DNA from: Betaproteobacteria bacterium
Lineage (GTDB): Bacteria; Pseudomonadota; Gammaproteobacteria; Burkholderiales; JAEUOS01
Reading direction: 5' to 3'
DNA length: 64,000 bases
Assembly: GCA_028292405.1 (NCBI GenBank)
Contig: JAQGMJ010000028.1
Coordinates: 145,962 to 209,961 of the forward strand
Positions within the stretch are counted from its first letter, which is position 1. Each line of letters begins with the position of its first letter. The translations under genes were made by a program, and so were the position numbers. The notes under the pieces are model-generated. The model worked only from the letters and a program-made list of their open reading frames with translations, made no database searches and had not been told where the DNA came from. This document shows positions 42,920 to 59,478 of the stretch, piece by piece.

Positions 42920-42929
42920 ATGTATACAA
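42920..42929 (-). promoter_or_regulatory. Candidate GntR operator TTGTATACAT at atzF transcript start
   Basis: The minus-strand 10-mer TTGTATACAT, with palindromic core TGTATACA, spans the predicted start of transcription of atzF. The same 10-mer occurs upstream of the PrpD operon. FCD-type GntR proteins commonly bind TNGT..ACNA sites of this kind. Confidence 0.6.
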
Positions 42930-44311: not shown

Positions 44312-45657
44312 TGGCAAGTTTGCTGATCAAGGGGGCGCTGGGCGCGTTGACGGGTGAAGCATCGCCGGCGGCGCGGCTGCCGGCCGTGGATGTGCGGGTG
44401 GCCGGCGGGCTGATCGAGGAGATCGCGCCGGCTTTGCAAGCACGCCCCGGTGAGAGCGTGCTCAATGCCGACGGCTGCGTGCTTTATCCAGGCCTGGTAA
44501 ACACGCACCATCATATGTTCCAGAGCCTGCTCAAGGGCGTGCCCGCGGGCATCAACGAGGGCCTGGGGCTGTGGCTGCGCGGCGTGCATTTGCCGCGCCT
44601 GCCGATTTTCGACGAGGAGATGGTGCGCGTGGGCGCGACCCTGGCACTGGTGCAAATGGCGCTTTCGGGCGCCACCACGGTGGCCGACCATTACTATTTG
44701 CATCATGCTGGCGCGGCGGGCGTGCTGTTCGAGGCGGCCGAGCAACTGGGCTTGCGCCTGGTGCTGTGCCGCGGCGCGGTGACGGTGAAGAGCGCCAATC
44801 CGGACTACCCGGACATCGTGCCGCCGGTGAGCTTCGATGCAATGTTGCGCGATATCGACGACCTGGCGGCGCGCTACCACGACCCGTCTGCCGATTCGCG
44901 GCGCCGGGTGGCGGTGGCGCCGCTGACGCCGACCTATTCGGTAACGCCGGCCGAACTCACGGAACTGGCTCGCTTTGCCCGCGCCAAGGGGCTGCGCATG
45001 CACACCCATCTTTCCGAGACGCTGGACTACATCAGCTATACGCGCGAGAAGCACGATTGCCTGCCGGTGCAGTTCATGGCGGAGCACGAGTGGCTGGGGC
45101 GCGACGTCTGGCTGGCGCACATGGTGCATCTGGCGCCGGAGGAAGTCGCGATGGTCGCGGCCAGCGGCACCGGCATCGCCCATTGCCCCACCAGCAACGC
45201 GCGCCTGGGCAGCGGCATCGCGCCCCTGCCCGCTTATACGCAGGCGGGCGTTTCGGTGTCGCTGGGTGTCGATGGCCCAGCCTGCAGCGAGGCCAGCCAC
45301 ATGCTGGACGAGGCGCGCATGGCCTGGCTGATCCATCGCGCGGCCAGCGGGCCGAAGAGCACCACGGTGGAAAACATCGTGCACGCGGCGACCCGCGCCG
45401 GTGCAGTCAATCTCGGCCTCGACAATGTCGGGTTGCTGAAACCCGGCATGGCTGCCGACCTGGTGGCTTTCGAACTCGAAGGGCCGGCTTACTGGGGCCA
45501 GCACGACGCGCTGGCCGCTCCTCTGATCACCGGGCATGCGCGGGTACGGCATTCGCTGGTGGGCGGCCGCGCGGTGGTGCGCGATGGCCTGCTTCCTGCA
45601 ATCGACCTGGAGAAGTTGCGCCACGACGCCGCCGCGGCGGTAGCGAAACTGCACTGA
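44311..45657 (+). CDS. TRZ/ATZ-family amidohydrolase (deaminase; 8-oxoguanine deaminase/AtzB-like)
   Basis: A 448-aa metal-dependent aminohydrolase of the amidohydrolase superfamily. Metal and catalytic residues appear in order: NTHHHMFQSLLKG (about residue 68), HTHLSETLDYI (about 230), WLAHMVHL (about 270) and LGVDGPACSEASHM (about 320). The mononuclear-metal pattern matches hydroxyatrazine/8-oxoguanine/guanine-type deaminases that release ammonia from a ring amine. In an s-triazine setting it could convert ammeline or ammelide towards cyanuric acid; 8-oxoguanine to urate is an alternative. It is translationally coupled to the receptor upstream. The substrate is inferred, the family is firm. 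Confidence 0.87.
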   Translation: MASLLIKGALGALTGEASPAARLPAVDVRVAGGLIEEIAPALQARPGESVLNADGCVLYPGLVNTHHHMFQSLLKGVPAGINEGLGLWLRGVHLPRLPIFDEEMVRVGATLALVQMALSGATTVADHYYLHHAGAAGVLFEAAEQLGLRLVLCRGAVTVKSANPDYPDIVPPVSFDAMLRDIDDLAARYHDPSADSRRRVAVAPLTPTYSVTPAELTELARFARAKGLRMHTHLSETLDYISYTREKHDCLPVQFMAEHEWLGRDVWLAHMVHLAPEEVAMVAASGTGIAHCPTSNARLGSGIAPLPAYTQAGVSVSLGVDGPACSEASHMLDEARMAWLIHRAASGPKSTTVENIVHAATRAGAVNLGLDNVGLLKPGMAADLVAFELEGPAYWGQHDALAAPLITGHARVRHSLVGGRAVVRDGLLPAIDLEKLRHDAAAAVAKLH

Positions 45658-45716
45658 GCCCATACCGGCGCCATATCGAACCTGCCTTGCCCTCCTCCAC
45701 CGCCCACTCCCCCTCC

Positions 45717-46451
45717 ATGCCCGCCACTCCCCTTCACGCCCAGCGCCCGCGCGCCGTGTCCGCCCCGCGCCGCTCCCTGGCCGATGCGATCTACGAGCAG
45801 CTCAAGTCCGAGGTGTTCGACTTCCGCCTGCTGCCGGGCGACCGCTTTTCCGAGTCCGAACTCGCCGAGCGCCTGCACGTGAGCCGCACGCCGGTGCGCG
45901 AGGCGCTCTACCGGATGGAGCGCGAAGGCTATATGGAGGTGCATTTCAAGAGCGGCTGGAGCATCTGCCAGATCGACTTCGCCCAGTTCGAGAATCTCTA
46001 TGACTTGCGGCTGATCCTCGAATCCGAGGCGGTACGGCGCATCTGCCAGATGCCGGAAAACACCGAGCTGCAGCGCCTGGCGCAGCTCTGGCTGGTGGCG
46101 CCGGAGGAGCGCGTGCACGACAGCGCGCGCATCTCGAAAATGGACGAGAGCTTTCACTCGACGCTGGTGGAAATCGCCGGCAACCCGGAGATCAGCCGGG
46201 TGCACCACGAGATCACCGAGCGGGTGCGGATCATCCGCCGGCTGGGGTTTTCCGGGCCGGAGCGGGTCGGCAAGTCGTACGACGAGCACGGCGCGATTCT
46301 CAAATACATTTTGCGCAACCGCGCCGACCAGGCGGTGATGCTGCTGAAAAGCCACATCGAGCTTTCCAAGGCGCAAGCGCGCGAGATCACTCTGCACCAT
46401 CTTTCGGAGGCGCGCCAGCGTTTGCGTCCACGCAGGCTCAAGGTGGTGTGA
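45717..46451 (+). CDS. GntR-family regulator, FCD type (deaminase operon)
   Basis: A 244-aa regulator. The winged helix covers IYEQLKSEVFDFRLLPGDRF and the recognition helix VSRTPVREALYRMEREGYMEV; the FCD domain has DESFHSTLVEIAGN, VHHEITERVRIIRR and YDEHGAILKYI with metal-binding His. It is a close paralogue of the GntR beside atzE. The ATG start is a choice, since the frame is open further upstream; it begins 59 nt after the deaminase stop and the Arg/Pro-rich lead is not conserved. It probably regulates its own operon or the shared divergent region. Confidence 0.88.
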   Translation: MPATPLHAQRPRAVSAPRRSLADAIYEQLKSEVFDFRLLPGDRFSESELAERLHVSRTPVREALYRMEREGYMEVHFKSGWSICQIDFAQFENLYDLRLILESEAVRRICQMPENTELQRLAQLWLVAPEERVHDSARISKMDESFHSTLVEIAGNPEISRVHHEITERVRIIRRLGFSGPERVGKSYDEHGAILKYILRNRADQAVMLLKSHIELSKAQAREITLHHLSEARQRLRPRRLKVV

Positions 46452-46488: not shown

Positions 46489-47274
46489 ATGAACCTGCAA
46501 GACAAAGTAGCCATCGTCACCGGCCCGGCCAAGGGCATGGGCACCGACATCACGCTTACCCTGGCGCGGGCCGGCGCCGACCTGGTGCTGGCCGGCCGCG
46601 ACATGGCGGCGATCGCGCCGGTGAAGGAGCAGGTGGCCGCGCTCGGTCGGCGCGTGATCGCGGTGGCCTGCGACGTCACCCGCGAGGAAGACGTGGCCGT
46701 GCTGGCGAAGGAGGCGCTGATGCATTTCGGGCGCATCGACATCCTGGTCAATTGCGCCGGCGGCACCGGCACCATCGAGAAACCCGGCCACGAGAACACG
46801 GTGGAAGAGTTCGAGCAGATCCTCGACCTCAACATGAAGGGCTGCTGGCTCACCATGCGCGCCGTGCTGCCGACCATGATCGCGCAGCGCTACGGCAAGA
46901 TCGTCAACGTCGGCGGCACCTTCGGCATGCGCGGGCGCTCCGGGCGCATGGCCTACAGCGCTTCCAAGTGGGGCCTGCGCGGCATTACCAAGAGTACCGC
47001 CATCGAGGTCGGCACGCACAACATCAACGTCAACTTCGTCGCTCCCGGCATGGTCGAGGGCGAGCGCTTCAACACCAAGGTGATGCCGGAGAAGGCGAAA
47101 AAGCTCGGGCTTTCGCTGGAAGATGCGCGCAAGACTTTCGAGGCCGAGTACGCGCTGCGGCGGATTTCCACCGGGCAGGACATTGCCAACGCGGTGCTGT
47201 TTCTTGCCAGCGACATGTCGCGGCAAATTACCGGCGTCGATCTCCCGGTCGATGGCGGCTGGGCTGCGCTGTAG
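46489..47274 (+). CDS. Short-chain dehydrogenase/reductase (SDR)
   Basis: A 261-aa classical SDR with TGPAKGMG (cofactor-binding TGxxxGxG, residues about 12-19), NCAGG in place of NNAG, and the catalytic YSASK with the upstream Ser replaced by GGTFGMRG (VNVGGTFG), so the usual catalytic Ser is not obvious. The C-terminus DLPVDGGWAAL is standard. It could oxidise or reduce an intermediate of the pathway; the substrate is unknown. It follows the GntR gene by 37 nt and is the last gene before a strong terminator. Confidence 0.88.
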   Translation: MNLQDKVAIVTGPAKGMGTDITLTLARAGADLVLAGRDMAAIAPVKEQVAALGRRVIAVACDVTREEDVAVLAKEALMHFGRIDILVNCAGGTGTIEKPGHENTVEEFEQILDLNMKGCWLTMRAVLPTMIAQRYGKIVNVGGTFGMRGRSGRMAYSASKWGLRGITKSTAIEVGTHNINVNFVAPGMVEGERFNTKVMPEKAKKLGLSLEDARKTFEAEYALRRISTGQDIANAVLFLASDMSRQITGVDLPVDGGWAAL

Positions 47275-47310
47275 CAGGCAAAAGTAAAAACCTACTTTTG
47301 CCTGGTTTTA
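47275..47310 (+). terminator. Strong intrinsic terminator after SDR
   Basis: CAGGCAAAAGTA-AAAACC-TACTTTTGCCTG is a perfect 12-bp stem with 6-nt loop, followed by GTTTTAATT, directly after the SDR stop. It separates the deaminase operon from the next three genes. Confidence 0.88.
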
Positions 47311-47321
47311 ATTCGCAGGAA

Positions 47322-47343
47322 ATCGCTGGCAAAGCCAGTCGAT
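47322..47343. promoter_or_regulatory. Inverted repeat upstream of cyclic amidohydrolase operon
   Basis: ATCGCTGGC-AAA-GCCAGTCGAT is near-perfectly symmetrical with one extra base in the right arm. It sits about 70 bp before the start codon of the amidohydrolase, a typical place for an operator. No clear -35/-10 or sigma-54 match was found in the 104 bp that follow the terminator. Confidence 0.5.
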
Positions 47344-47413
47344 TGCCTGGGTGAAGAGCAACGAAAAGGCGTCTCGAATTGGATTTCCGAAGCGCATGAA
47401 AGATGAGGTAGTG

Positions 47414-48835
47414 ATGCAACCCGTAGACATGCTGATCAAGAACGCCAAGGTCGTTTCGCCCGAATCCACCATCGACGCCTGCATCGCCATTCGCGGCGAA
47501 ATCATCGTCGCAGTCGGCGCCGAAGAGGCGATGCCGCCGGCCAAGCAGGTGATCGACGCCGGCGGAAAATACGTGATCCCCGGCGCGATCGACAGCCACG
47601 TGCATTTCCGCACGCCGGGCTACGAGTACAAGGAAGACTGGTATACCGGCACCGGCGCGGCAGCGCGCGGCGGCGTCACTACCGTGCTGGAGATGCCAAA
47701 CACCAACCCGCCCACCGGCACTGTCGCGGCGCTGACGCAAAAGCAGGAAATCGCGCATTCGCAGGCAGTGGTGGACTTCGGCATCTACGGCCTGCTCGAC
47801 GAGAACAACATCGACATACTCGAAGACCTGATCGCAGGCGGCGTCTCCGGCTTCAAGTGTTTCATGGGCAACACCTTCGGCAACCTGCCGGCGCCGTCCG
47901 ATGGCGCGATGCTCGAAGGCTTCGAAATCCTCGCGCAGCACGGCATGCGCTGCACCGTGCACGCGGAAAACCCCTCCATCATGGCGCGGCGCCAGGGCAA
48001 GATGGAAAAAGCCGGCCGCACCGATTCGATGGCCCACCTGGCTGCCCGCCCGGCGGTGTGCGCGATGGAAGCGGTGAGCCGCGCCGCCATTTTCGCCGAG
48101 TGGACCGGCGCGCGCCTGCACATTGCCCACAAGAGTTCGGCCGACGGCCTTTACTTCGTGCGCGACGCCAAGCGCCGCGGCGTCGACATCACGGTGGAAA
48201 CCTGCCCGCAATATCTGCTGCTTAATACGGACATGATGCAGGCCCTCGGCAAGGAGGGCGGCATCATGCGCGTCAACCCGCCGATCCGCGAGCCGGGGCA
48301 TGAAGAGCCGCTGTGGCAGGCACTGCTCGACGGCACCGTGGACATGATCGCCACCGATCACGCGCCGCACTCGCCTGAGGAAAAGACCCGAGCCAGCATC
48401 TGGGAATGCGACTGCGGCTTTCCCGGCGTGGAAACGCAAATGCCGTTGATGCTCACCGAAGTCAACAAGGGCCGCGCGACGATCAACCAGTACGTTGCCT
48501 GGTCCGCCGCCAACCCGGCCAAGGCCTGGGGCTTCTACCCGCGCAAGGGCGTGATCCAGGCCGGCGCGGAAGCCGACATCGTGATCGTCGACATGAACAA
48601 GGACGAGACCATCGACCAGGGCGGCCTGTTTTCCAAATCCAAGATCACCCCCTGGCACGGCCGCAAGATCAGCGCCAAGCCGGTGCTCACCATGGTGCGC
48701 GGCCGGGTGGTAATGCAGGACGGCGAAATCATCGCCGCCGCCGGCACCGGCCGCGCCGCACGCCAGCAGATGCCGGCGCCGAAGCCGCGCAACCTCGACA
48801 AGACCACCGCCGCCATTCTCGATTACAAGGCCTGA
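47414..48835 (+). CDS. Cyclic amidohydrolase (dihydroorotase/allantoinase/hydantoinase-like)
   Basis: A 473-aa binuclear-metal amidohydrolase. Metal ligands are intact: SHVHFRTPG (about residue 58), the carboxylated Lys in SGFKCFMGN (about 150), VHAEN, IAHKSS and [12 protein letters not shown] (about 318). The DHAPH pattern resembles dihydroorotase/allantoinase more than bacterial hydantoinase. I chose the ATG of MQPVDML, with GAGG 5 nt upstream; earlier codons overlap the operator-like repeat. No pyrimidine-synthesis genes are near, so a catabolic cyclic amide is likely. The next gene starts 2 nt after its stop, so it is coupled to the AtzD homologue. Confidence 0.88.
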
Positions 48836-48837
48836 CC

Positions 48838-49923
48838 ATGTACCGCATCGACGTCCACAAGATCGGCCAATCCGGCCCCGGCGACCTCTCGGGCCTGAAG
48901 GCCCTGATCGAGGCCGGCACCATCAAGCCCGAGCAGATCATCGCGATGATGGGCAAGACCGAGGGCAACGGCTGCGTCAACGACTTCACCCGCGAATACA
49001 CCACCGTCGTCCTGTCCCAATACCTCGGCGGGCTGCTGCAGCTGACGCCGAAGGCGGTGGAAAAACGCATCGCCTTCGTCATGTCCGGCGGCACCGAGGG
49101 CGTGCTGTCGCCGCATATCACGGTGTTCACCCGCGTCACTGCCGACCCGGTGCGCATGGGGCCGAAGCGCCTGGCCGCCGGCATCGCCTTCACCCGCGAG
49201 TTTTTGCCGGAAGAATTGGGGCGCATGGCGCAGATCGAGGCCACCGCGCAGGCGGTGATGGAAGCGATGCGCGACGCCGGCATCGCCGACCCGGAGGATG
49301 TGCATTTCGTCCAGGTGAAGTGCCCGCTGCTCACCGCCGAACGCATCCGCGAAGCCGCGGGGCGCGGCGCCCAGGTGGTGACCCATGACAACTACGAGTC
49401 GATGGGCTATTCGCGCGGCGCCTCCGCGCTCGGCGTGGCCTACGCGCTGGGCGAAGTGCAGCGCTCGCAGCTTTCCGACGCCTGCGTTCTGAACGACTGG
49501 AAGCTCAATTCCGGCGTGGCTTCCACCTCTGGCGGCATCGAACTGATGTACAACGCGATCATCGTCTTCGGCAACGCCGCCGCCTCGCCCAGCCCCTACG
49601 TCTGCGCCCATACCGTGATGCGCGACGCCATCGACGCGCGCTCGGTGATGGACGCCATTGCCGGCCTGCCGGTGCCGGCAGCCAACATCGTCAACGTCTT
49701 CGCCAAGGCCGAGGCCGACCCCAGCGGCAGCACGCGCGGCCGGCGCCACACCATGCTGGAAGATTCCGACATCAACCAGACGCGGCATGCGCGCGCCGTG
49801 GTCGGCGGCGTGATCGCCTCGGTGGTCGGCGACCCGATGATCTACGTCTCCGGCGGCGCCGAGCACCAGGGGCCGCCTGGCGGCGGCCCGGTGGCGATCA
49901 TCGCGCGCACCGAAACGTTTTGA
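48838..49923 (+). CDS. atzD: Cyanuric acid amidohydrolase (AtzD/TrzD-type)
   Basis: A 361-aa ring-opening amidohydrolase of the length of AtzD. Its motifs agree closely with classical Atz[77 protein letters not shown] and [14 protein letters not shown]. The three Ser-Lys pairs of the trefoil active site are all there. The enzyme opens cyanuric acid to 1-carboxybiuret without a classical metal mechanism. With AtzE/G and AtzF nearby the full route to ammonia is encoded. Oddly, it is not with atzEGF but between a cyclic amidohydrolase and an M20-type gene. Barbiturase activity cannot be excluded from sequence alone. Confidence 0.9.
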
Positions 49924-49925
49924 GC

Positions 49926-51104
49926 ATGGCCGCGGGTCCGGCGGGCGACGCAACAGACGACAGCATCGCGCAAGCCCTGCTGGCGCTGCTCGGCGACCTG
50001 ATCGCGATTCCCTCGACCTTCCCCGCCGGCAACACCGAAGCGATCGCGGACTATTGCGCACGCCGCCTCGCCGCCGCCGGCTACGCGGTGCAGCGCGCCG
50101 ATTCCGGCGGCGTCGTCAACACGGTGGCGCGCATCGGCAGCGATGCGCCCTCGGTGGTGTTCAACGTCCACGCCGACACGGTCGAGCCCGGCGAGCGCGG
50201 CGCCTGGAACACCGATCCATTCCAGGCGCAACTCATCGATGGCCGCATCCACGGCCTGGGCGCGGGCAACTGCAAGGGGCCGATGGCGGTGCAGCTATGG
50301 CTGGCTGGGGAAGTGGCGCGGCGCGGCGGCCCGAAGCACGGCGAGATCGTCTTTACCTTCGTCGGCGACGAGGAAAGCCTGGGACCGCACGGCCTGAAAT
50401 TCCTGCGCGACGCCGGCCACGTGAAGCCGGACATCCTGATCGTCGGTGCGCAGACCGAAAACCAGTTGGTGGTGGAAGAGCGCGGCGTGATGTGGAGCCG
50501 CATCACCACGCGCGGCAGCACCGCCCACGCCGGCATGCCGCACCTGGGCGACAACGCGATCCTGCGCATGCTTAGAGTGCTGCAACATATCGAGACAGGT
50601 CTGGTCCCGCAGATTGCGGCGCGCAAAAGCGGCACCAAGCAAGCGACCTTGAGCGTCGGCACCATCGCCGGCGGCAGCAATACCAACGTGGTGCCGGGCA
50701 GTTGCAGCGTGACCATCGACCGCCGCCTGCTGCCGGAAGAAAATCTCGACAGCGCGTTCGCCGAATTGCGCGCAGTTGCACTGGCAGCCGGCGAGCCGGC
50801 CGGCACGGTGGAAGTCGAACTCCTCACCGGCTCAAACGGCTTCGACAGCGGGCGCGGCGGCAAGGGCGTGGCGGCCTTCAGCGATGCGATCGAAAAGCTC
50901 TCCGGCGCGCCTGTGCGCTTTCTCGATGTGGTGGGCGTCTTCGATGGCCGCTACTTCGCCCGCGACGGCATCGAGATCATCGACTTCGGCCCGGGCGAAG
51001 GGCACGAAGGACATGCGCCGAACGAATCGACGCCGCTCGCGCAATTGGTTCAGGCCGCGCGGATACAGTTGCAGGTGTTGCGAAAACTCACGGACATTGC
51101 GTGA
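49926..51104 (+). CDS. M20-family (ArgE/DapE-like) protein with altered metal site
   Basis: A 392-aa protein with the two-domain M20 layout. The first metal His and Asp are in FNVHADTVEPG (about residue 80) and the catalytic Glu pair is in FVGDEES (about 147). The dimer-domain His is in GSTAHAGMPHLG and the last metal His in GEGHEGHAPNE. Two usual ligands are changed: the bridging Asp of GLGxxDxKG is Asn here (GLGAGNCKG), and the Glu of GEPT is replaced in VGAQTEN. It may bind one metal or do a different reaction. The ATG follows the atzD stop by 2 nt. I infer it processes the ring-opened product. Alternative: an ordinary amidase with shifted ligands. Confidence 0.82.
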   Translation: MAAGPAGDATDDSIAQALLALLGDLIAIPSTFPAGNTEAIADYCARRLAAAGYAVQRADSGGVVNTVARIGSDAPSVVFNVHADTVEPGERGAWNTDPFQAQLIDGRIHGLGAGNCKGPMAVQLWLAGEVARRGGPKHGEIVFTFVGDEESLGPHGLKFLRDAGHVKPDILIVGAQTENQLVVEERGVMWSRITTRGSTAHAGMPHLGDNAILRMLRVLQHIETGLVPQIAARKSGTKQATLSVGTIAGGSNTNVVPGSCSVTIDRRLLPEENLDSAFAELRAVALAAGEPAGTVEVELLTGSNGFDSGRGGKGVAAFSDAIEKLSGAPVRFLDVVGVFDGRYFARDGIEIIDFGPGEGHEGHAPNESTPLAQLVQAARIQLQVLRKLTDIA

Positions 51105-51506: not shown

Positions 51507-52319
51507 CTAGCTTTTGCCGCCCGGCGCAAACAGTCGCTTGACCCGCGCCTTGTGCGCCTCGTGGATGTGTGCGCGCGTCAGCTTGTCGGCGGCATCGGCA
51601 TCGCGCCTGGCGATGGCATCGACAATCGCCGCATGCTCCACCGCGTTGGCGCGCGCCCGCGCCGGGTCGGCCAGGTTGGAGTCGCCCAGGAGGCCGAGCG
51701 CGTCGTGCAGCGGGTCGAGCATTTTCAGCAAAAAGCGATTGTGCGCGCAGCGGTACAGCGCCTCGTGGAACTGGCGGTTCTTTTCCGCCAGCTCGGCGTC
51801 GCGACCGCTTTTCACCAGCGCGGCGTATTGCGCTCCCAGTTCGGTCAGCAGCGATACCTCGACCTCGGAGGCCACCTGTGCCGCCAGGCGCGCCGCCATG
51901 CCTTCGAGCATCTCGCGCATCACGTATAGCTCGCCGACCATCGAGTGGTCGAACTCCGCCACCATGATGCCGCGCTGCCCGTGCTCGGTGGCGAGACCAT
52001 CGGCCAGCAGGCGGTACAAGGCCTCGCGCACCGGCGTGCGCGAAAGGCCAAGGGACTCGGCCAGCTCCACTTCGCGCAGTCGGTCGCCCGAACGAAAGCG
52101 CCGCTGGCGTATCGCGCGGCGGATTTCCTGGTAGGCATGCTCGCCGCGCGGCAGGTCGGCCAGGGCATCGACGCTAGGCCCCAGCGGCGCGAGGGGTGCA
52201 TTCGCCGCCTCGGCGCGCACGCGCGGCGCGGCGCGCAGTGCAGCACGCGGCGCGACCCTGGCGGCCGGCCTGGCCGCGGGCTTGACCGCGGGTTTCACCG
52301 CTCTGGGGCTCTTGGGCAT
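51507..52319 (-). CDS. GntR-family regulator, FCD type (PrpD/TcuA operon)
   Basis: A 270-aa regulator. An unusual N-terminal stretch of about 45 residues is rich in Lys, Pro, Ala and Arg (KPAVKPAARPAARVAPRAA), histone-tail-like and possibly non-specific DNA-binding. The winged helix has YQEIRRAIRQRRFRSGDRL and recognition helix LSRTPVREALYRLLADGL. The FCD domain has NRQFHEALYRCAHN and VEHAAIVDAI with metal-binding His. It is the last gene of the six-gene operon, 6 nt after the flavoprotein stop, and likely controls it through TTGTATACAT upstream. Confidence 0.9.
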   Translation of the reverse strand: MPKSPRAVKPAVKPAARPAARVAPRAALRAAPRVRAEAANAPLAPLGPSVDALADLPRGEHAYQEIRRAIRQRRFRSGDRLREVELAESLGLSRTPVREALYRLLADGLATEHGQRGIMVAEFDHSMVGELYVMREMLEGMAARLAAQVASEVEVSLLTELGAQYAALVKSGRDAELAEKNRQFHEALYRCAHNRFLLKMLDPLHDALGLLGDSNLADPARARANAVEHAAIVDAIARRDADAADKLTRAHIHEAHKARVKRLFAPGGKS

Positions 52320-52325
52320 GACCGA

Positions 52326-53804
52326 TTATGCCAATGAAGCGGCCGCGCCGGTACCGGCAATTTTGCCGAACACCGCGCCCGACACCAGGCCGGTGCCGCT
52401 GGCATAGTTGAAATAGAAAATACCGCCGACCATTTCGCCGGCGCAAAACAGGCCGGGGATCGGGCGGAAATTCACGTCCACCACCTGCCCATTTTCCGGA
52501 TCGATGCGCAAGCCGCCGAAGGTGAAGGTGATGCCGCAGGTGGTCTGGTAGGCGTCGTAGGGCGGCGTGTCGAGCGCCTGCGCCCAGTTCGACTTCGGCG
52601 GGTCGATGCCCACCGTGCCCTTGCCGTCCTTCACGGTGTGCTGGAAGGGTACGTCTTTTTGCACGGCGGCGTTGTACTCCTGGATGGTCTTGAGCGCGGC
52701 TTTCGAATCCACGCCCTCGAGCTTTTCCGCCAGCTCCTCCAGCGTATTGGCGCTCACCTTGGTGACGAACTTGATGCGGTATTCATTGCGCAGGTAGTCC
52801 TTCACCTTGGCGTCGAACACCTGCCAGGCGAACTGCGCGGTTTGCTTGAGCACTTCGCCGCCGTACTTGGCGTAGGTGAAGGAGTGGAAGTCGTAGCCTT
52901 CATCGACAAAGCGCTTGCCGGAGGAGTTGATCAACAGGCCGAAGATGTAGCTGTGCTTCTGGAACTTGTCGCCGACGTTGACGTCCCCGAACTCCGGCGC
53001 GTTGCGGTCCCAGCCGGTGGCATGGCAGCCGGACCAGTTGCCGTAGGGCGCCGCCCCGATATCCAGCGCCATCTTCAGGCCGTCGCCCTGGTTGAAGCGC
53101 GAGCCGCGCACCTTCGCCAGTTCCCAGCCTGGACCTAAGTAGCGGGCGCGCATTTCCGGATTCGCCTCGAAGCCGCCGCAGGCCAGGATCACCGCCTTGG
53201 CGTGGAACTCCACCACCTCGCCGCGCTGCTGCGTGACCACGCCGCCGACGCGGATGCCGTCGTAGATCAGCTTGGTGACGCGGGTTTCGTAGAACACCTC
53301 GATGCCGGCCTTTTTCGCCGCCTTGTCGAGAAACTCCACCAACCCGGCACCGCCGCCCGACACCTCGATCGGCAGGCGGCCGAAGAACTTGCGCTTGCCG
53401 TTGACGAGACCCGACTGGCGGCCGTAGTTGGGCACGAAGCGCACGCCCGTCTCTCGCAGCCAGGCCATCGTATCCAGGCTCTTGGTGACCAGGATCTCGC
53501 ACAGCGTGGGGTCGGTGCGGAATTGCGTCAGGCGGAACATGTCGTCGAAGAACTCGTCTTCGCGGTTGGTGCCGTAGTCGCTGTCGGCGATCTCTTCATC
53601 GGTCAGTTCGGTGACGCGCTTCAGGTCTTCCACGCTCGAGTAGGCGAAGCGCATCACGCCGCCGGCAAAGCGGCTGTTGCCGCCGGATTCGTCTTCGTTC
53701 GCCGCCTCCAGCACGGCCACGCGTGCGCCCTTCTGGCTTGCCGCCAGCGCCGCGCACAATGCCGCGTTGCCCTTGCCCACCACCACCACGTCGTACTGAT
53801 GCAT
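52326..53804 (-). CDS. FAD-dependent tricarballylate dehydrogenase-like flavoprotein
   Basis: A 492-aa flavoprotein of the fumarate reductase/succinate dehydrogenase family, with best visible resemblance to TcuA. FAD site: YDVVVVGKGNAALCAALAA at the N-terminus; GGNSRFAGG; ILACGGFEANPEMR (about 215); and C-terminal GGLRIDPENG with PGLFCAGEMVGGIFYFNYASGTGL. The ATG of MHQYDVV has AGGAG 6 nt upstream, which rules out the longer track start. TcuA oxidises tricarballylate to cis-aconitate. Here it sits with PrpD-type enzymes that act on citrate/aconitate-like acids, so a tricarboxylate or related polyacid substrate is likely. TcuB, its usual electron partner, is absent. Confidence 0.87.
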   Translation of the reverse strand: MHQYDVVVVGKGNAALCAALAASQKGARVAVLEAANEDESGGNSRFAGGVMRFAYSSVEDLKRVTELTDEEIADSDYGTNREDEFFDDMFRLTQFRTDPTLCEILVTKSLDTMAWLRETGVRFVPNYGRQSGLVNGKRKFFGRLPIEVSGGGAGLVEFLDKAAKKAGIEVFYETRVTKLIYDGIRVGGVVTQQRGEVVEFHAKAVILACGGFEANPEMRARYLGPGWELAKVRGSRFNQGDGLKMALDIGAAPYGNWSGCHATGWDRNAPEFGDVNVGDKFQKHSYIFGLLINSSGKRFVDEGYDFHSFTYAKYGGEVLKQTAQFAWQVFDAKVKDYLRNEYRIKFVTKVSANTLEELAEKLEGVDSKAALKTIQEYNAAVQKDVPFQHTVKDGKGTVGIDPPKSNWAQALDTPPYDAYQTTCGITFTFGGLRIDPENGQVVDVNFRPIPGLFCAGEMVGGIFYFNYASGTGLVSGAVFGKIAGTGAAASLA

Positions 53805-53820
53805 CAATTTCTCCTGAGGG

Positions 53821-55224
53821 TTAATCCAGGGACAGCAGCGCGCCGATGGCACGCACGTCGTCCAGTGTTTCGATTTGTTGGATCGCGTCGTAGGCCGCGT
53901 TCACCTTGGCCTCGCCCAGCGCCGGCGTGGCGCAGTGGGCGAACTTGTCGCGCAAAGCGCGCGCCGACAGCGGGTTGTCCGAGGTGCGCCCCGCCGGCTG
54001 CTCGGTCTTGCCCGAGAGCACGCGGCCATCGCGCAGGCGCACTTGCACTTCGCCGCCGAAATGGTTGTCGGGGGAGAATTGCGCATCGCCATACGGTGCG
54101 GCCTTCACGCGCGGCAGCAGGCGGCGCACCCGCGCATCCATGTACGCCTTGTCTTCGAAATGCGCCAGGGTGACGCTGGCATCGAGCAATGCGCGCGCGA
54201 CGACGTACTGCACGCTGAACTTGGCGTCGAGCTCGCTGTTCGGATCGGGCCGGTTGGTGTGCTTGAGGCGCCGCTGGTGGGTCCAGATATTCACCTCGGC
54301 GATGTCCTCTTCCCTGAACTTGTGCGCGTGGGAAAGTTCGATCGCCACGTCCACAGCCGGGTGCGTGCTGCCGCAGCAGGGATATTGCTTGATCGCGATG
54401 CCCGGGCGCACGATGTCCAGTGGGCTGGCCCAGGCGTCGATGCCGCGCTGCGCGTCGTAATTGCCGGCGCCGTTGTAGACCTCGAAAAACCCCTGCTCAT
54501 GCTCGAACACCCGCGCGGCATTGGCGGTGTAGCCCGCCTGCGCCATTTTCGCCGCCAGCAGGCCCTCGCTGGCGCAGCGGCCGATGTGAAAGGGCTTGGT
54601 CATGGTGCCGAAGTTGGCCTTGATGCCGGCGGCGGAGGAGGCGGCGAGCGCGACGGCCACCGCCGTCTGCGCCGCATCCAGGTCCAGCAGGCGCGCGCAC
54701 GCCGCGGCCGCGCCAAACACGCCGAGGGTGGCGGTCGGGTGCCAGCCCTTCATGTAGTGGTGAAAGTTCACGCTCATGGCGATCTTGGTCTCGAGCTCGA
54801 AACCGGCGACATAGGCGGCGACGAACTTCTTGCCGTCCACCCTGGCCTCATCGGCCAGCGCGAACAGCGCTGGCAGGACCGGCGCCGAGGGGTGGCCACC
54901 CATGGTGTTGTTGCAATCGTCGAAGTCCAGCGCGTGGCTGGCGGTGCCGTTGATCATCGCCGCGTCCAGCGCGCGGACCCGGCCGCGCAAGCCGAACAGC
55001 GCACTCGGCCCCGATGCCGGCGTCAGTGCCTTTGTCAGCAGCGCCGCACAAGGCTCGCGCGCGCCGGCCACGGTGACCCCGGCAGTGTCGAGAATGCCGA
55101 CCTTGGCCCAGTGCACTGCCTCGGGCGGCAGGTCATCGTAATCCATTGCGGCGACCAGCGCGCCGAATTGCTGCGCCAGTCCGATTGCCTGTGTACCGAC
55201 AGATTCCTTGAGTATGGCTGCCAT
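53821..55224 (-). CDS. MmgE/PrpD family protein 1
   Basis: A 467-aa member of the MmgE/PrpD family (2-methylcitrate dehydratase, cis-aconitate decarboxylase, iminodisuccinate epimerase). It keeps the canonical HALDFDDCNNTMGGHPSAP segment (about residue 98), GWHPTATLGVFGAAAA, and the YPCCGSTHPAVDVAIEL stretch in the second domain. AGGAG lies 6 nt before the ATG. It is 16 nt upstream of the flavoprotein gene and 9 nt after the Bug receptor. Of the three paralogues it looks most like a standard dehydratase/epimerase; exact reaction unknown. Confidence 0.9.
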   Translation of the reverse strand: MAAILKESVGTQAIGLAQQFGALVAAMDYDDLPPEAVHWAKVGILDTAGVTVAGAREPCAALLTKALTPASGPSALFGLRGRVRALDAAMINGTASHALDFDDCNNTMGGHPSAPVLPALFALADEARVDGKKFVAAYVAGFELETKIAMSVNFHHYMKGWHPTATLGVFGAAAACARLLDLDAAQTAVAVALAASSAAGIKANFGTMTKPFHIGRCASEGLLAAKMAQAGYTANAARVFEHEQGFFEVYNGAGNYDAQRGIDAWASPLDIVRPGIAIKQYPCCGSTHPAVDVAIELSHAHKFREEDIAEVNIWTHQRRLKHTNRPDPNSELDAKFSVQYVVARALLDASVTLAHFEDKAYMDARVRRLLPRVKAAPYGDAQFSPDNHFGGEVQVRLRDGRVLSGKTEQPAGRTSDNPLSARALRDKFAHCATPALGEAKVNAAYDAIQQIETLDDVRAIGALLSLD

Positions 55225-55233
55225 ATGGTTCTC

Positions 55234-56247
55234 CTATGCTTCAGTGCGCAGGCCGAGTTCGCGGATCAGCTTGCGCCAGCGCGTGATTTCCGAGCGGATG
55301 TGCTCGCCGAATTGCGCCTGCGTGGTGCCCACCGGCTCCGAGCCGTCCGCACCGAGCCGCTCGGCCATGTCCGGCGAGCGCAGCGCGGCTACGATGCCCT
55401 GGTTCAATTTGGCGACGATGGGCGCGGGCGTGGCGACCGGTGCCATCACGCCGTACCAGCCGGCGACTTCGAAGCCCGGCAGGCCCGACTCCTGCACCGT
55501 CGGAATATTCGGCGCAGCGGCGGCGCGCTTCGCGGTGCTCACCGCAATCGCCCGCAGCTTGCCCGCCGCGATGTGCCCGTGCGATTGCAGCAGCGTGGAA
55601 AACAGCATCTGGATATTGCCGCTGATCACGTCGGCCATCGCCGGCGCCCCGCCCTTGTAGGGCACGTGGGTCATTTTCACGCCGGCCATCGAGGCGAACA
55701 GCGCGCCGGACAAATGGCTGAAGCCGCCGATGCCCGAGGAGCCATAGTTGATGCTGTCCGGCTTGGCCTTCGCCAGCGCGATCAGCTCGGCGACATTCTT
55801 CACCGGCAACCTCGGATTGACCACCAGCACATAGGGCTGCGAAGTCACCTGCGTGATCGGCGCCAGATCGCGCGTCAGGTCGTAAGGCGTGTGGCCCTGC
55901 AGGGTGACGTTGACCGAGTGGCTGGAGGAGATCATGGTCAGCGTGTAACCGTCCGGCGCCGCCTTGGCGCACATGTCGACGGCGATGGTGCCGTTGGCGC
56001 CAGGATGATTTTCCACCACCACCGATTGCTTCCACGCCTCGGTGAGCTTTTGCGCGATGGCGCGCGAGGTGATGTCGACGCCGCCGGCGGCAGCGAAGGG
56101 GCACAGCAGGCGGATCGGCTTGCCCGGGTAGTCCTGCGCCGGGTCGCGCTGCGCGAAGGCGGCGGGCGCGCAACCGGCCGCCCCGAATGCAGTCAGCGCT
56201 TGCAGCAGCCTGCGACGGTCGGCGCTTTCGATGATTGCCTGGTTCAT
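55234..56247 (-). CDS. Bug/TctC-family solute receptor
   Basis: A 337-aa periplasmic receptor of the Bug family (tripartite tricarboxylate transporter type). Signal peptide RRRLLQALTAFGAAGCAPAAFA, then the typical YPGKPIRLLCPFAAAGGVDITSR, GANGTIAVDMCAKAAPDGYT and the conserved SSGIGGFSHLSGALFASMAG and VPYKGGAPAMADV. The start has AGGAG 6 nt upstream. These proteins bind carboxylates or other small molecules; orphan receptors without TctAB membrane genes are usual in Burkholderiales, as here. Within this operon it likely captures the polyacid broken down by the flanking enzymes. Confidence 0.93.
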   Translation of the reverse strand: MNQAIIESADRRRLLQALTAFGAAGCAPAAFAQRDPAQDYPGKPIRLLCPFAAAGGVDITSRAIAQKLTEAWKQSVVVENHPGANGTIAVDMCAKAAPDGYTLTMISSSHSVNVTLQGHTPYDLTRDLAPITQVTSQPYVLVVNPRLPVKNVAELIALAKAKPDSINYGSSGIGGFSHLSGALFASMAGVKMTHVPYKGGAPAMADVISGNIQMLFSTLLQSHGHIAAGKLRAIAVSTAKRAAAAPNIPTVQESGLPGFEVAGWYGVMAPVATPAPIVAKLNQGIVAALRSPDMAERLGADGSEPVGTTQAQFGEHIRSEITRWRKLIRELGLRTEA

Positions 56248-56283
56248 GATTGTCTCCTCATGATCTTCCGTTCCCGGCCGGCT

Positions 56284-57633
56284 TTACCGCAGGTCCAGGT
56301 GCGACAGTTTTTCCAGCCCGCGCAGGCTGCCCAGCCAGCGCTCGCTGATCTCGCCCGGCAGGTCGGCGGCCAGGCGCCGGTATTTGGCGTCGGTGGCCGC
56401 ATCGTCCAGCGGCTGCTCCGGCGCGCCACGGAAAGTTTCGCGGTCCACATCGAAGCGGCGGCCGTCGCGCAGTTGCAGTTCCAGCCGGCTTTGCCAGGCG
56501 CCCTTGGCACCGGCCTCTTTGCCATACGGCTGCAGAACGATGCCGCGACACGCTGTGGCAATGCGCGCATCGGCCAGCGCATCTTCATTGAATGAACGGG
56601 GGTCGGCCGGGTCGCGGTGCAGCGCCAGCGCGACGCAAAACGGCACGCTGTATTGCGCCTGCATCAAATCACCCGGCGCGCGGATGTCGTGATGGCTGAG
56701 CACTTTTTCCGACACGCTCAGGCGGATGTTCTCCACCTCGTCGCCGCCGAACCCGTGCTCGGCCATCAAGGTGCACAGCGACTCCACCGGCGTATGCGCG
56801 GTAACGTGGCAGGGAAAGGCCTTGATGCAAATGCGCTCGACTTCCCACTGCTCGCCGAGGCCGGCGGTTAGCTTCGATGCATCGGCGTCGCGGCAATACG
56901 TCTCAAGAAAACCGAAGCGCCCTTCCAATATCGTCTCCGGCCCGCCAAAGCCTTCCGCCGCCAGCCCGGCGGCGAGCACGCCCGCCTCCGCGGCGCGCCC
57001 CAGGTGCAGGCGCTTGACCTCGCCGCCCCCGGCAGACTTGGTAAACGCCAGCAAGCCGGAAGAGAGCGAGCCGGCGATGCCCAGCGCATCGGCCAGTTGC
57101 TCCGCGGACAGGCCCATCACCACGCCCGCCGCGATCGCCGCGCCATACGGCCCGGTCAGCCCCGGCGCGTGAAAGCCCAGGCCTTCGCTGGAATGCCTGG
57201 AAGCCGCGCCGATGCGAAACATCACTTCGCAGCCGGCGATAAACGCCAGCAACAATCGCTCACCCGAAGCGCCGCCCTGCTCGGCCGCGGCCAGGGCCGC
57301 CGGCAGCAGCACCGCGCCGGGGTGCACCCCCGCGCCCGGCTTGCGCAGGCTGTCCTGCTCGAAAGCGTGGGCGAAGCTGCCGTTGACCAGCGCCGCCATC
57401 TGCGCCGGCAGGCGCAACTGCGGCAGGCCCAGCACGGTGCAGCGCCCGCCGGCGCCGAAGCGGCTGGCATAGCGCGCCACCGCCTGGCTCCAGGGAAAGC
57501 GGCTGCCGAAGGCGGCCACGCCCACCGTGTCGATGATGCAATTGCGCGCGCGCTCGACCACCGCCGGCGGCACATCGGCGAGCGACAGTCCGGCGGCAAA
57601 GCGCGCCAGGGTGACGGCGGCGGTCTGGCTCAC
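56284..57633 (-). CDS. MmgE/PrpD family protein 2
   Basis: A 449-aa MmgE/PrpD paralogue with a GTG start, 6 nt after the stop of paralogue 3. The family's HALDFDD segment is replaced by HAFEQDSLRKPGAGVHPGAV, as seen in non-dehydratase clades. Other family marks are GFHAPGLTGPYGAAIAAGVV, the Lys segment HLGRAAEAGVLAAGLA and CIKAFPCHVTAHTPVESL. The changed acidic motif suggests a different substrate or reaction (epimerase or decarboxylase) from paralogue 1. It may pair with paralogue 3. Confidence 0.88.
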   Translation of the reverse strand: MSQTAAVTLARFAAGLSLADVPPAVVERARNCIIDTVGVAAFGSRFPWSQAVARYASRFGAGGRCTVLGLPQLRLPAQMAALVNGSFAHAFEQDSLRKPGAGVHPGAVLLPAALAAAEQGGASGERLLLAFIAGCEVMFRIGAASRHSSEGLGFHAPGLTGPYGAAIAAGVVMGLSAEQLADALGIAGSLSSGLLAFTKSAGGGEVKRLHLGRAAEAGVLAAGLAAEGFGGPETILEGRFGFLETYCRDADASKLTAGLGEQWEVERICIKAFPCHVTAHTPVESLCTLMAEHGFGGDEVENIRLSVSEKVLSHHDIRAPGDLMQAQYSVPFCVALALHRDPADPRSFNEDALADARIATACRGIVLQPYGKEAGAKGAWQSRLELQLRDGRRFDVDRETFRGAPEQPLDDAATDAKYRRLAADLPGEISERWLGSLRGLEKLSHLDLR

Positions 57634-57639
57634 GGCGGC

Positions 57640-59037
57640 TCAGGCCTTGACCATCAGGTCGACGATCTTGCCGGCATCGCCCAACTTCTCCATGCCCAGC
57701 ACCGCTTCGGCCAGCGCGTCCACCTGGTTCGCCGGCAGCGCGTGCACGGCAAGCTTACGGAATTTTTCCACCACGTCGGCTTCGCTGGCGAAATTGTGCT
57801 CGTTGCCGCGACCGGCTTCGACAGTGGCCTTGAGCACGGTGCCGTCCTTGAGGTGGGTCTCGACGCGCACCATGTGGCGGAACTTGGAGCCCTTGGCGGT
57901 GATCTCCTTGTCTTCTTCCACCTGCACTTTTTCGGCAATGCGCATGCGCTCCGGGTCGGCCACCTTGTCTTCGGTGAATTGCTTGACGAAGCAGTCGCCG
58001 TCGAGCAGCAGCGTGGCCACGCAGTAGGGCAGGTTGAGCTGCGCCGACACCAAGCCGCTTGGAATGTATTTCCAGCCGACGTGGTCCATGGTCACTTGCG
58101 AGCCGCGCACGATGATCTTCTCCACGTCCTCCGCGCCGAAGGGCTTTTCCGCCTGCATCAGCCGCAGCGCGTCCAGCGTGGTGTGGTTGCTGCCGACGCA
58201 GGAGTAGAACTTCAGCGCCACGCCCATGGTCTGCCACACTTCGCCCAGGCCGGCGGTGAGTTCGGCCAGGTCGAAACGGTCCTGCGAGCGCGAGAAGGTG
58301 GTGCAAAAGCCGCCGTATTCGGACTCCAGCACATTCTCGATGCCGGTGAAGCCGCCCTCGGCGAGCAGGGCGCCGTAGAGGCCGCTTTGCGAGGAGCGGC
58401 CCGCGTGCATGCGCTTGACCATGGCGCCATATTGCGCCGCCATCAGGCCGGCGGCCTGGGTGCCGGCGATGCCCAATGCATGCACGGTCTTTTGCGCATC
58501 CAGCCCAAGGCCGCGCGCGGCGCCGGCGCCGGCGGAAAACACGCCGAGCGTCGCGCCCGAGTGCCAGCCCTGCGCGATGTGCTCCGGCCCCATGCAGACG
58601 CCGACGCGCGGGCCGACCTCGTAGCCGGCGACAGCAGCAGCAAGGAACTCGCGCCCCGTCAGCTTGCGGCGCGACTCGGCGATCGACAGCAGCGCCGGCA
58701 GCACCACCGCGCCGACGTGCAGCACACCCTGGCGATGCACGTCGTCCAGCTCGAAGCCCTGCACCTGGGTGCCGTTGATCAAGGCGGCGTGCGGGGAGGA
58801 CAGGCGCAATTTCGTGCCCCAGATCGCCGCGCCCCTGGACTCGTCGACCTTCGACAGGGTCTCTTGCATGATGCGGCACCAGGGCAGGTTGGCGCCGTAG
58901 AGCGCGCAGCCGAGGGAATCGAGAATCAGCAGGCGGATGCGCTGGCGCACCTCGGCGGGAATCGCATCGTATTGCAGGCCGGAGACAAACTGCGCCAGGC
59001 CGCGGGTATAGGGATTGTCGCGTGGGGTATCGCTCAT
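57640..59037 (-). CDS. MmgE/PrpD family protein 3
   Basis: A 465-aa MmgE/PrpD paralogue and first gene of the operon. It has QVQGFELDDVHRQGVLHVGAV where classical members have HALDFDD, then GWHSGATLGVFSAGAGAARG, MHAGRSSQSGLYGALLAEGGF and KFYSCVGSNHTTLDAL. Like paralogue 2 it departs from the dehydratase motif, but in a different way, so the three are not recent copies. The Lys-rich insertion VQVEEDKEITAKGSKFRHM is distinctive. A candidate GntR operator is 130 bp upstream. Confidence 0.88.
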   Translation of the reverse strand: MSDTPRDNPYTRGLAQFVSGLQYDAIPAEVRQRIRLLILDSLGCALYGANLPWCRIMQETLSKVDESRGAAIWGTKLRLSSPHAALINGTQVQGFELDDVHRQGVLHVGAVVLPALLSIAESRRKLTGREFLAAAVAGYEVGPRVGVCMGPEHIAQGWHSGATLGVFSAGAGAARGLGLDAQKTVHALGIAGTQAAGLMAAQYGAMVKRMHAGRSSQSGLYGALLAEGGFTGIENVLESEYGGFCTTFSRSQDRFDLAELTAGLGEVWQTMGVALKFYSCVGSNHTTLDALRLMQAEKPFGAEDVEKIIVRGSQVTMDHVGWKYIPSGLVSAQLNLPYCVATLLLDGDCFVKQFTEDKVADPERMRIAEKVQVEEDKEITAKGSKFRHMVRVETHLKDGTVLKATVEAGRGNEHNFASEADVVEKFRKLAVHALPANQVDALAEAVLGMEKLGDAGKIVDLMVKA

Positions 59038-59165
59038 TGCAGGATCGACTCGGAGGTAATAGGGAAGTGGATGTTGCGGAAGGAAACAGGAGAAGGCCCG
59101 GGCAGCGGCCGTCAGTCGCGCCGGAAGATGGGACGTGGAGCATCCTCAATGTCCTCTGGATTCTA

Positions 59166-59175
59166 TTGTATACAT
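59166..59175 (-). promoter_or_regulatory. Candidate GntR operator TTGTATACAT upstream of PrpD operon
   Basis: TTGTATACAT, identical to the 10-mer over the atzF start of transcription, lies in the 530-base gap upstream of the six-gene operon. Its core TGTATACA is palindromic. I could not place a -35/-10 near it with confidence. Confidence 0.55.
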
Positions 59176-59478
59176 TGGAACACAGCAACGCCCGGCAGCG
59201 CATTTTGCCGCATAAGCCGCCCGCTATTGCCCGCCCCGCGCGGCATGCAAATCAACCACACTTAGTTGTCGGGTTCGCGTATGTTTGAAACCAAGGTCGC
59301 CGCCATTAAGTGCGGCCGCGCTCTTTAACATCGCCCCATTTGGCTTGGCGCCTGATCGGTGTAGCGCGACCACAGTTGTGTTGAACGAAGCGGCCAAGCG
59401 TCGCTTCTTTGCAAGGTGGCGTGCGTTTTTTTGAAAAAACCTCAGGTTTTCTCGGGTTTTAGCGACTAAACATGCACC

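Follow-up and report, generated by a model that had tools for sequence, protein, structure and literature searches.

Within the 64,000-nt stretch of betaproteobacterial DNA analyzed here (the window; contig JAQGMJ010000028.1 of assembly GCA_028292405.1, positions 145,962 to 209,961), six tightly packed genes occupy positions 51507-59037 of the minus strand, separated by gaps of 6 to 36 nt. In the order of transcription, they encode A1, A2, a Bug receptor, A3, a flavoprotein and a GntR/FCD regulator, where A1, A2 and A3 are three MmgE/PrpD enzymes. The operon is real and conserved; its enzyme families are known, but they are newly combined. Its features are as follows, with the evidence for each in parentheses:

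57640-59037, minus strand: A1, MmgE/PrpD enzyme, first gene of the operon (Pfam, active-site alignment, orthologs, AlphaFold model)
56284-57633, minus strand: A2, MmgE/PrpD enzyme (Pfam, active-site alignment, AlphaFold model)
55234-56247, minus strand: Bug/TctC periplasmic solute receptor (PF03401, 238 bits)
53821-55224, minus strand: A3, MmgE/PrpD enzyme with the full active site of iminodisuccinate (IDS) epimerase (nearest solved relative, residues)
52326-53807, minus strand: TcuA-like flavin adenine dinucleotide (FAD) dehydrogenase (NF006130, FAD_binding_2)
51507-52319, minus strand: GntR/FCD transcription regulator, last gene of the operon (PF00392, PF07729)
59162-59179, no strand assigned: candidate operator ATTGTATACATT, whose GTATAC palindrome (59168) lies about 131 nt ahead of A1

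A1, A2 and A3 alike carry both MmgE_PrpD_N and MmgE_PrpD_C above the Pfam cut-off. PF03401 is likewise above its cut-off in the receptor, and the regulator joins a GntR helix-turn-helix to an FCD domain. For the flavoprotein, a start at ATG 53807 is more likely than one at GTG 53852. The original prediction, made by a model that saw only the letters and the reading frames, had also described six close-packed genes, and the firm Pfam domains bear this out; its gene list left out the sixth, the regulator. It placed the motifs HALDFDD, HAFEQDS and GFELDDVH correctly, in enzymes it numbered PrpD-1, -2 and -3 from left to right, which in terms of transcription order are A3, A2 and A1.

Conservation of the gene set

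To follow the operon elsewhere, 80 loci were chosen by A1 alone (orthologs 69–79% identical), and neighbors were scored within about 10 kb. An ortholog of the flavoprotein (≥70% identity) lies near A1 at 51 of these loci, A2 at 36 and A3 at 34; all three accompany A1 at 24 loci, and at least one of them does so at 55. The exact order A1-A2-Bug-A3-flavoprotein-GntR is seen at four loci (L025, L026, L028, L034), and two more (L031, L035) agree with the window up to their contig ends. At L023, L033 and L038, the same genes are split and divergent, so that the set is kept and the order is not. The gene set thus recurs across Betaproteobacteria, in the same or shuffled order. In a sample of 120 genomes from the order, 6 have an A1 ortholog (≥69%), 4 an A2 ortholog and 4 a flavoprotein ortholog, the latter two only in A1-positive genomes (4/4 within 6/120). 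The probability of this by chance is ~2e-6 if genomes are independent, which they are not fully. In one genome (G055), the operon genes lie on different contigs and still co-occur. Distance matrices of A1, A2, A3 and the flavoprotein correlate at 0.82–0.90 over 23 loci, as expected for co-inheritance. These patterns uphold the earlier view that the genes form one functional set.

Other frequent neighbors of A1 were set aside. Families f0, f1, f2, f4 and f6 owe their frequency mostly to closely related metagenome-assembled genomes (MAGs), and the SelA-, SelB- and thioredoxin-reductase-like neighbors look positional. The record titles of some loci (L013, L069 and several "Bordetella parapertussis" MAG loci), which name Chitinophaga, Dehalococcoidia and B. 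parapertussis MAGs, clash with their betaproteobacterial gene content; these bins are probably mislabelled or contaminated.

The GTATAC palindrome may provide a regulatory counterpart. It is found ≤200 bp upstream of A1 at 18 of 78 loci, compared with 17 of the 866 other genes (p about 7e-12 by Fisher's test, uncorrected for relatedness), and at 13 of the 14 listed loci that have a GntR homolog. Its flanks are near ATTGTATACAAT where GntR is ≥60% identical to the regulator of the window, and where GntR belongs to the more distant class, most sites read ACCAC(G/T)GTATAC. On the basis of this association, we regard the palindrome before A1 as a candidate operator of the GntR/FCD regulator. A second GTATAC palindrome (ATGTATACAAG) lies at 42922 of the window, between divergent open reading frames (ORFs) and upstream of a region with another GntR-type regulator (the C-terminal part of ORF 44571-46451).

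The genome as a whole is rich in both MmgE/PrpD enzymes and receptors. About a fifth of prokaryotic species have an MmgE/PrpD protein, nearly all of them uncharacterised (PMC12290011). In this order (Burkholderiales), most genomes have 0–3 MmgE/PrpD genes and a few have twenty or more; the genome studied here has 25, and some relatives have 80–96 unscored candidates. A Bug gene lies within two genes of 20 of the 25 (counted from gene maps), far more than the ~19% expected even if some 270 Bug candidates are spread over 5,200 genes (an assumed total). Because the genome has only 6 TctA permeases for at least 150 TctC/Bug receptors (270 candidates), we take the operon receptor to be an orphan; such receptors are known from other expansions (PMC5994714).

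Active sites of the three MmgE/PrpD enzymes

A1, A2 and A3 share only about 30% pairwise identity (29–30% for A2 against the A1 and A3 types). In a maximum-likelihood tree of these proteins, the 22 further MmgE/PrpD proteins of the genome and three solved relatives, each of the three belongs to an ortholog group of its own, with full support. The low identity and the separate clades rule out a recent tandem duplication of one enzyme. None of the three passes an NCBIfam PrpD equivalog model (at best 50 bits, against cut-offs of 458–950).

Active-site residues were mapped onto IDS epimerase and human ACOD1 (IDS numbering 85, 88, 99, 145, 150 and 198, plus a second lysine) for 81 A1, 38 A2 and 34 A3 sequences. 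The A3 signature, H-D-H-Y-H-K-K (H85, D88, H99, Y145, H150, K198 and the second Lys), is invariant in 34/34 orthologs and constitutes the complete IDS-epimerase set, which no A1 or A2 sequence has. A3 thus holds the His+Tyr two-base pair and the carboxylate-binding residues, and its best solved relative is IDS epimerase itself (2hp0/2hp3, 218 bits over about 400 aa). A1 and A2 lack this pair. The A2 signature, H-E-H-E-H-K-K, is invariant in its 38 sequences and has Glu at the Tyr position. In A1 (Q-E-H-I-H-K-K), Gln replaces a carboxylate-binding His and Ile replaces Tyr; the signature is invariant except at the Tyr position (Ile in 79, Val in 2). The group-specific differences are far beyond chance.

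In epimerases of this family, His and Tyr act as a two-base pair; cis-aconitate decarboxylase has no such Tyr, and a one-base mechanism has been proposed for it, while the same work leaves the mechanism of 2-methylcitrate dehydratase open (PMC12290011). Because the published mechanism ties the His+Tyr pair to epimerases, and lack of the Tyr to decarboxylase/dehydratase, we predict epimerase activity for A3 and some other activity for A1 and A2. A1 is a predicted one-base hydratase/dehydratase. A2 is a predicted hydratase or isomerase; its invariant Glu stands where epimerases have the second-base Tyr, and might itself serve as a different sort of second base. The three enzymes very probably do different steps, as the original prediction had supposed from their motifs; the separate ortholog groups and group-invariant active sites speak for this.

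The main rival to the route proposed below is that A2 and/or A1 decarboxylate an aconitate-like acid made by the flavoprotein, giving an itaconate-like acid that is then degraded as a coenzyme A (CoA) ester by genes elsewhere. Like cis-aconitate decarboxylase, A1 and A2 lack the epimerase Tyr. Residues His103, His159 and Lys207 of human ACOD1 are kept in both, and His277 in A2 only (38/38); an equivalent of Tyr318 was not found by alignment, in a column that is unreliably aligned. AlphaFold models of A1 and A2, the only two modelled, have the MmgE/PrpD two-domain fold (predicted local distance difference test, pLDDT, 87 and 91), and their top structural matches are cis-aconitate decarboxylases. 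However, the template-modelling (TM) scores to cis-aconitate decarboxylase and IDS epimerase (about 0.8–0.88 for A1, about 0.82–0.89 for A2) hardly distinguish the two, and the best structural match was dropped as a guide to the reaction. Moreover, itaconate CoA-transferase, hydratase and lyase genes were not noticed in the operon or its conserved neighborhood, whereas a lyase of isocitrate lyase (ICL) type is. We therefore consider decarboxylation unlikely, if still worth bearing in mind.

The flavoprotein and the lyase

The flavoprotein was originally called TcuA-like, which holds loosely: it passes the NCBIfam TcuA model NF006130 (548 bits, cut-off 369) and fails the stricter TIGR02485 (238 bits, cut-off 373). 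It is not a fumarate reductase, since Arg402, His504 and Arg544 of that enzyme are not kept. Where fumarate reductase has the catalytic Arg402, both the flavoprotein and TcuA have Tyr. On these grounds, it is probably a dehydrogenase of an acid related to tricarballylate, but not of tricarballylate itself.

One could suppose instead that the flavoprotein is a second TcuA and that the MmgE enzymes pass aconitate isomers into the tricarboxylic acid (TCA) cycle, the operon serving the use of tricarballylate (or citrate/aconitate). The NF006130 score and the shared Tyr would fit, as would the fact that tricarboxylates are known ligands of TctC-type receptors. However, in addition to the TIGR02485 result, no TcuB partner is found in the operon, and a true TcuA-TcuB pair lies elsewhere in the genome (contig C7, 114091-116656, outside the window; TcuA scores of 751 and 659 bits against these models), its TcuA only 36% identical to the flavoprotein. 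Aconitase already handles cis-aconitate, which would make three further enzymes redundant. This alternative is quite improbable, and the tricarballylate role in particular, as first envisaged for the flavoprotein, is not supported.

Relatives of the flavoprotein (58–59%) at L106, L107, L147 and L149 lie near a phosphosulfolactate-synthase-like gene, and in the annotated cases a sulfonate-type ATP-binding cassette (ABC) transporter is also present. These loci may represent a sulfosuccinate-type degradation cluster.

Eight of the 80 A1 loci, from about four lineages, have nearby a PrpB-like lyase of the ICL/phosphoenolpyruvate (PEP)-mutase family, which resembles methylisocitrate lyase but scores below its cut-offs. 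In the genome studied here, an ortholog of this lyase (58–59%) lies at C4:154930-155781, inside a cluster with four other MmgE genes; further family members occur at C85, next to an MmgE gene, and at C18, flanked by two flavoprotein paralogs. The paralogous C18 cluster has the order Bug-flavoprotein-lyase-LeuC-LeuD-PrpF-flavoprotein-AcnA-MmgE-Bug, and a Hydrogenophaga plasmid has flavoprotein-LeuC-LeuD-Bug-PrpF. Together with the lyase contexts, these two arrangements point to a chemical logic of dehydrogenation, cis/trans isomerisation, hydration and cleavage.

Both clusters of this genome hold additional genes. The one on C4 (L093, 153–172.5 kb) contains four MmgE/PrpD genes, five Bugs, a flavoenzyme like old yellow enzyme (OYE), the lyase and two metallo-beta-lactamase-fold proteins; one of its MmgE/PrpD genes is of the A1b group, which adjoins A1 in other genomes. 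The one on C18 (L125 and L100, about 217–237 kb), whose MmgE is A2-like, also has HIBADH-like and muconate-cycloisomerase-like genes.

Proposed route and its relation to known systems

We propose that the operon serves the uptake of a C2-substituted succinate and the opening steps of its CoA-independent degradation, a reading that we think stands an even chance of being right. The substrate would be akin to tricarballylate or methylsuccinate, a di- or tricarboxylate with a branch, which the Bug receptor would bind in the periplasm. A3, working through the same His/Tyr two-base mechanism as IDS epimerase and methylsuccinate isomerase, would interconvert the stereoisomers of this acid, and the flavoprotein would then dehydrogenate the usable isomer to an aconitate-like acid (a substituted maleate/fumarate). 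A1 and A2, both without the Tyr, would isomerise and hydrate this alkene to a substituted malate; they may thereby take the position held in sister operons by PrpF and a LeuCD-type hydratase. Finally, the ICL/PEP-mutase-family lyase, encoded elsewhere in this genome and beside A1 in other species, would cleave the malate to a 2-oxoacid or glyoxylate plus a carboxylate. The GntR/FCD protein would control the operon via the palindrome ahead of A1. What the sequences themselves display is the gene content, the three ortholog groups, their active-site differences, the co-inheritance and the operator association; from these we infer what class of acid is the substrate, each reaction and its place in the route, and the cleavage by a lyase.

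Several points weigh against this proposal. The residue assignment of A1 and A2 depends on an alignment at ~25% identity, and no residue change proves a reaction; the functions of A1, A2 and A3 are predictions. There is no lyase within the operon itself. The correlation of the distance matrices reflects shared species history too. Some genomes (e.g., G060) have A1 but none of A2, A3 and the flavoprotein, so the role of A1 may be separable from the set. Of the ~27 loci of the flavoprotein subfamily examined, only ~11 have a hydratase, PrpF or MmgE nearby; the others lie beside sulfonate transport genes or nothing telling.

Quite unlikely, in our view, is a nitrogen-bearing acid, either iminodisuccinate-like or set free by ring-opening amidohydrolases of the kind encoded in the adjacent convergent operon (46489-51104). 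In its favor, IDS epimerase is the nearest solved relative of A3, and PuuE-like deacetylases (7 loci), an AllC-like hydrolase and an amidase occur near A1 in some loci, but the module has no C–N lyase or transaminase, and the residues common to A3 and IDS epimerase are also kept in methylsuccinate isomerase (PMC12290011). The convergent operon (plus strand) encodes a short-chain dehydrogenase/reductase (SDR), a hydantoinase/allantoinase-like protein, an AtzD/TrzD ring-opening amidohydrolase (533 bits to NF052395, past its cut-off) and an M20 deacylase, and looks like a set for degradation of a barbiturate/cyanurate-type heterocycle. As these genes are conserved near A1 in 0/80 loci, it was ruled out as a conserved source of the substrate. 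The branched or amino-substituted polyacid of the original prediction is thus narrowed: nothing firm speaks for the amino-substituted kind, and a branched or carboxylated succinate suits the neighboring enzymes better.

One of the closest known parallels to the proposed succinate route is the itaconate/methylsuccinate cluster (PMC12290011, PMC9875883), in which an MmgE/PrpD (S)-(R)-methylsuccinate isomerase, PA0881, likewise feeds a branched-succinate dehydrogenase. PA0881 has the same proposed catalytic residues as A3, but with Glu for Asp. That cluster has one MmgE/PrpD enzyme, an acyl-CoA dehydrogenase and a CoA-transferase, whereas the operon described here has three MmgE/PrpD enzymes, a CoA-independent flavoprotein and no CoA enzyme. 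With tcuAB it shares a homologous FAD dehydrogenase and the Arg-to-Tyr change, and differs in the respects given above. Like the 2-methylcitrate cycle (prpBCD(F)-acnD), it uses MmgE/PrpD enzymes, and a PrpB-like lyase and PrpF occur in related loci; however, A1, A2 and A3 score below the PrpD cut-offs, the operon lacks a citrate-synthase-type gene, and a canonical prp operon is present separately (contig C31). IDS epimerase (2hp0) has all its catalytic residues matched in A3, but is distant and comes from another operon context. The open-licence literature covers single MmgE/PrpD enzymes and TcuA; no paper was found there on this combination, nor any joining MmgE with TcuA or with tripartite tricarboxylate transporter (TTT) receptors. 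This agrees with the earlier claim of an undescribed route, although it is weak evidence of absence.

A further-reaching idea, which we put forward tentatively and with some doubt, is that substituted succinates are degraded here by a so far undescribed "dehydrogenate–isomerise–hydrate–cleave" pathway that involves neither iron-sulfur enzymes nor CoA, with three MmgE/PrpD paralogs standing in for the PrpF isomerase and an aconitase-type hydratase. If so, a single protein family would perform epimerisation, isomerisation and hydration in one route. A conserved operon with three MmgE/PrpD enzymes, each with its own invariant active-site change, is in any case a compact set for testing directly how residues relate to reactions in a family that includes human ACOD1. 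It also points toward a polyacid in the environment for whose degradation there seems to be no description so far.

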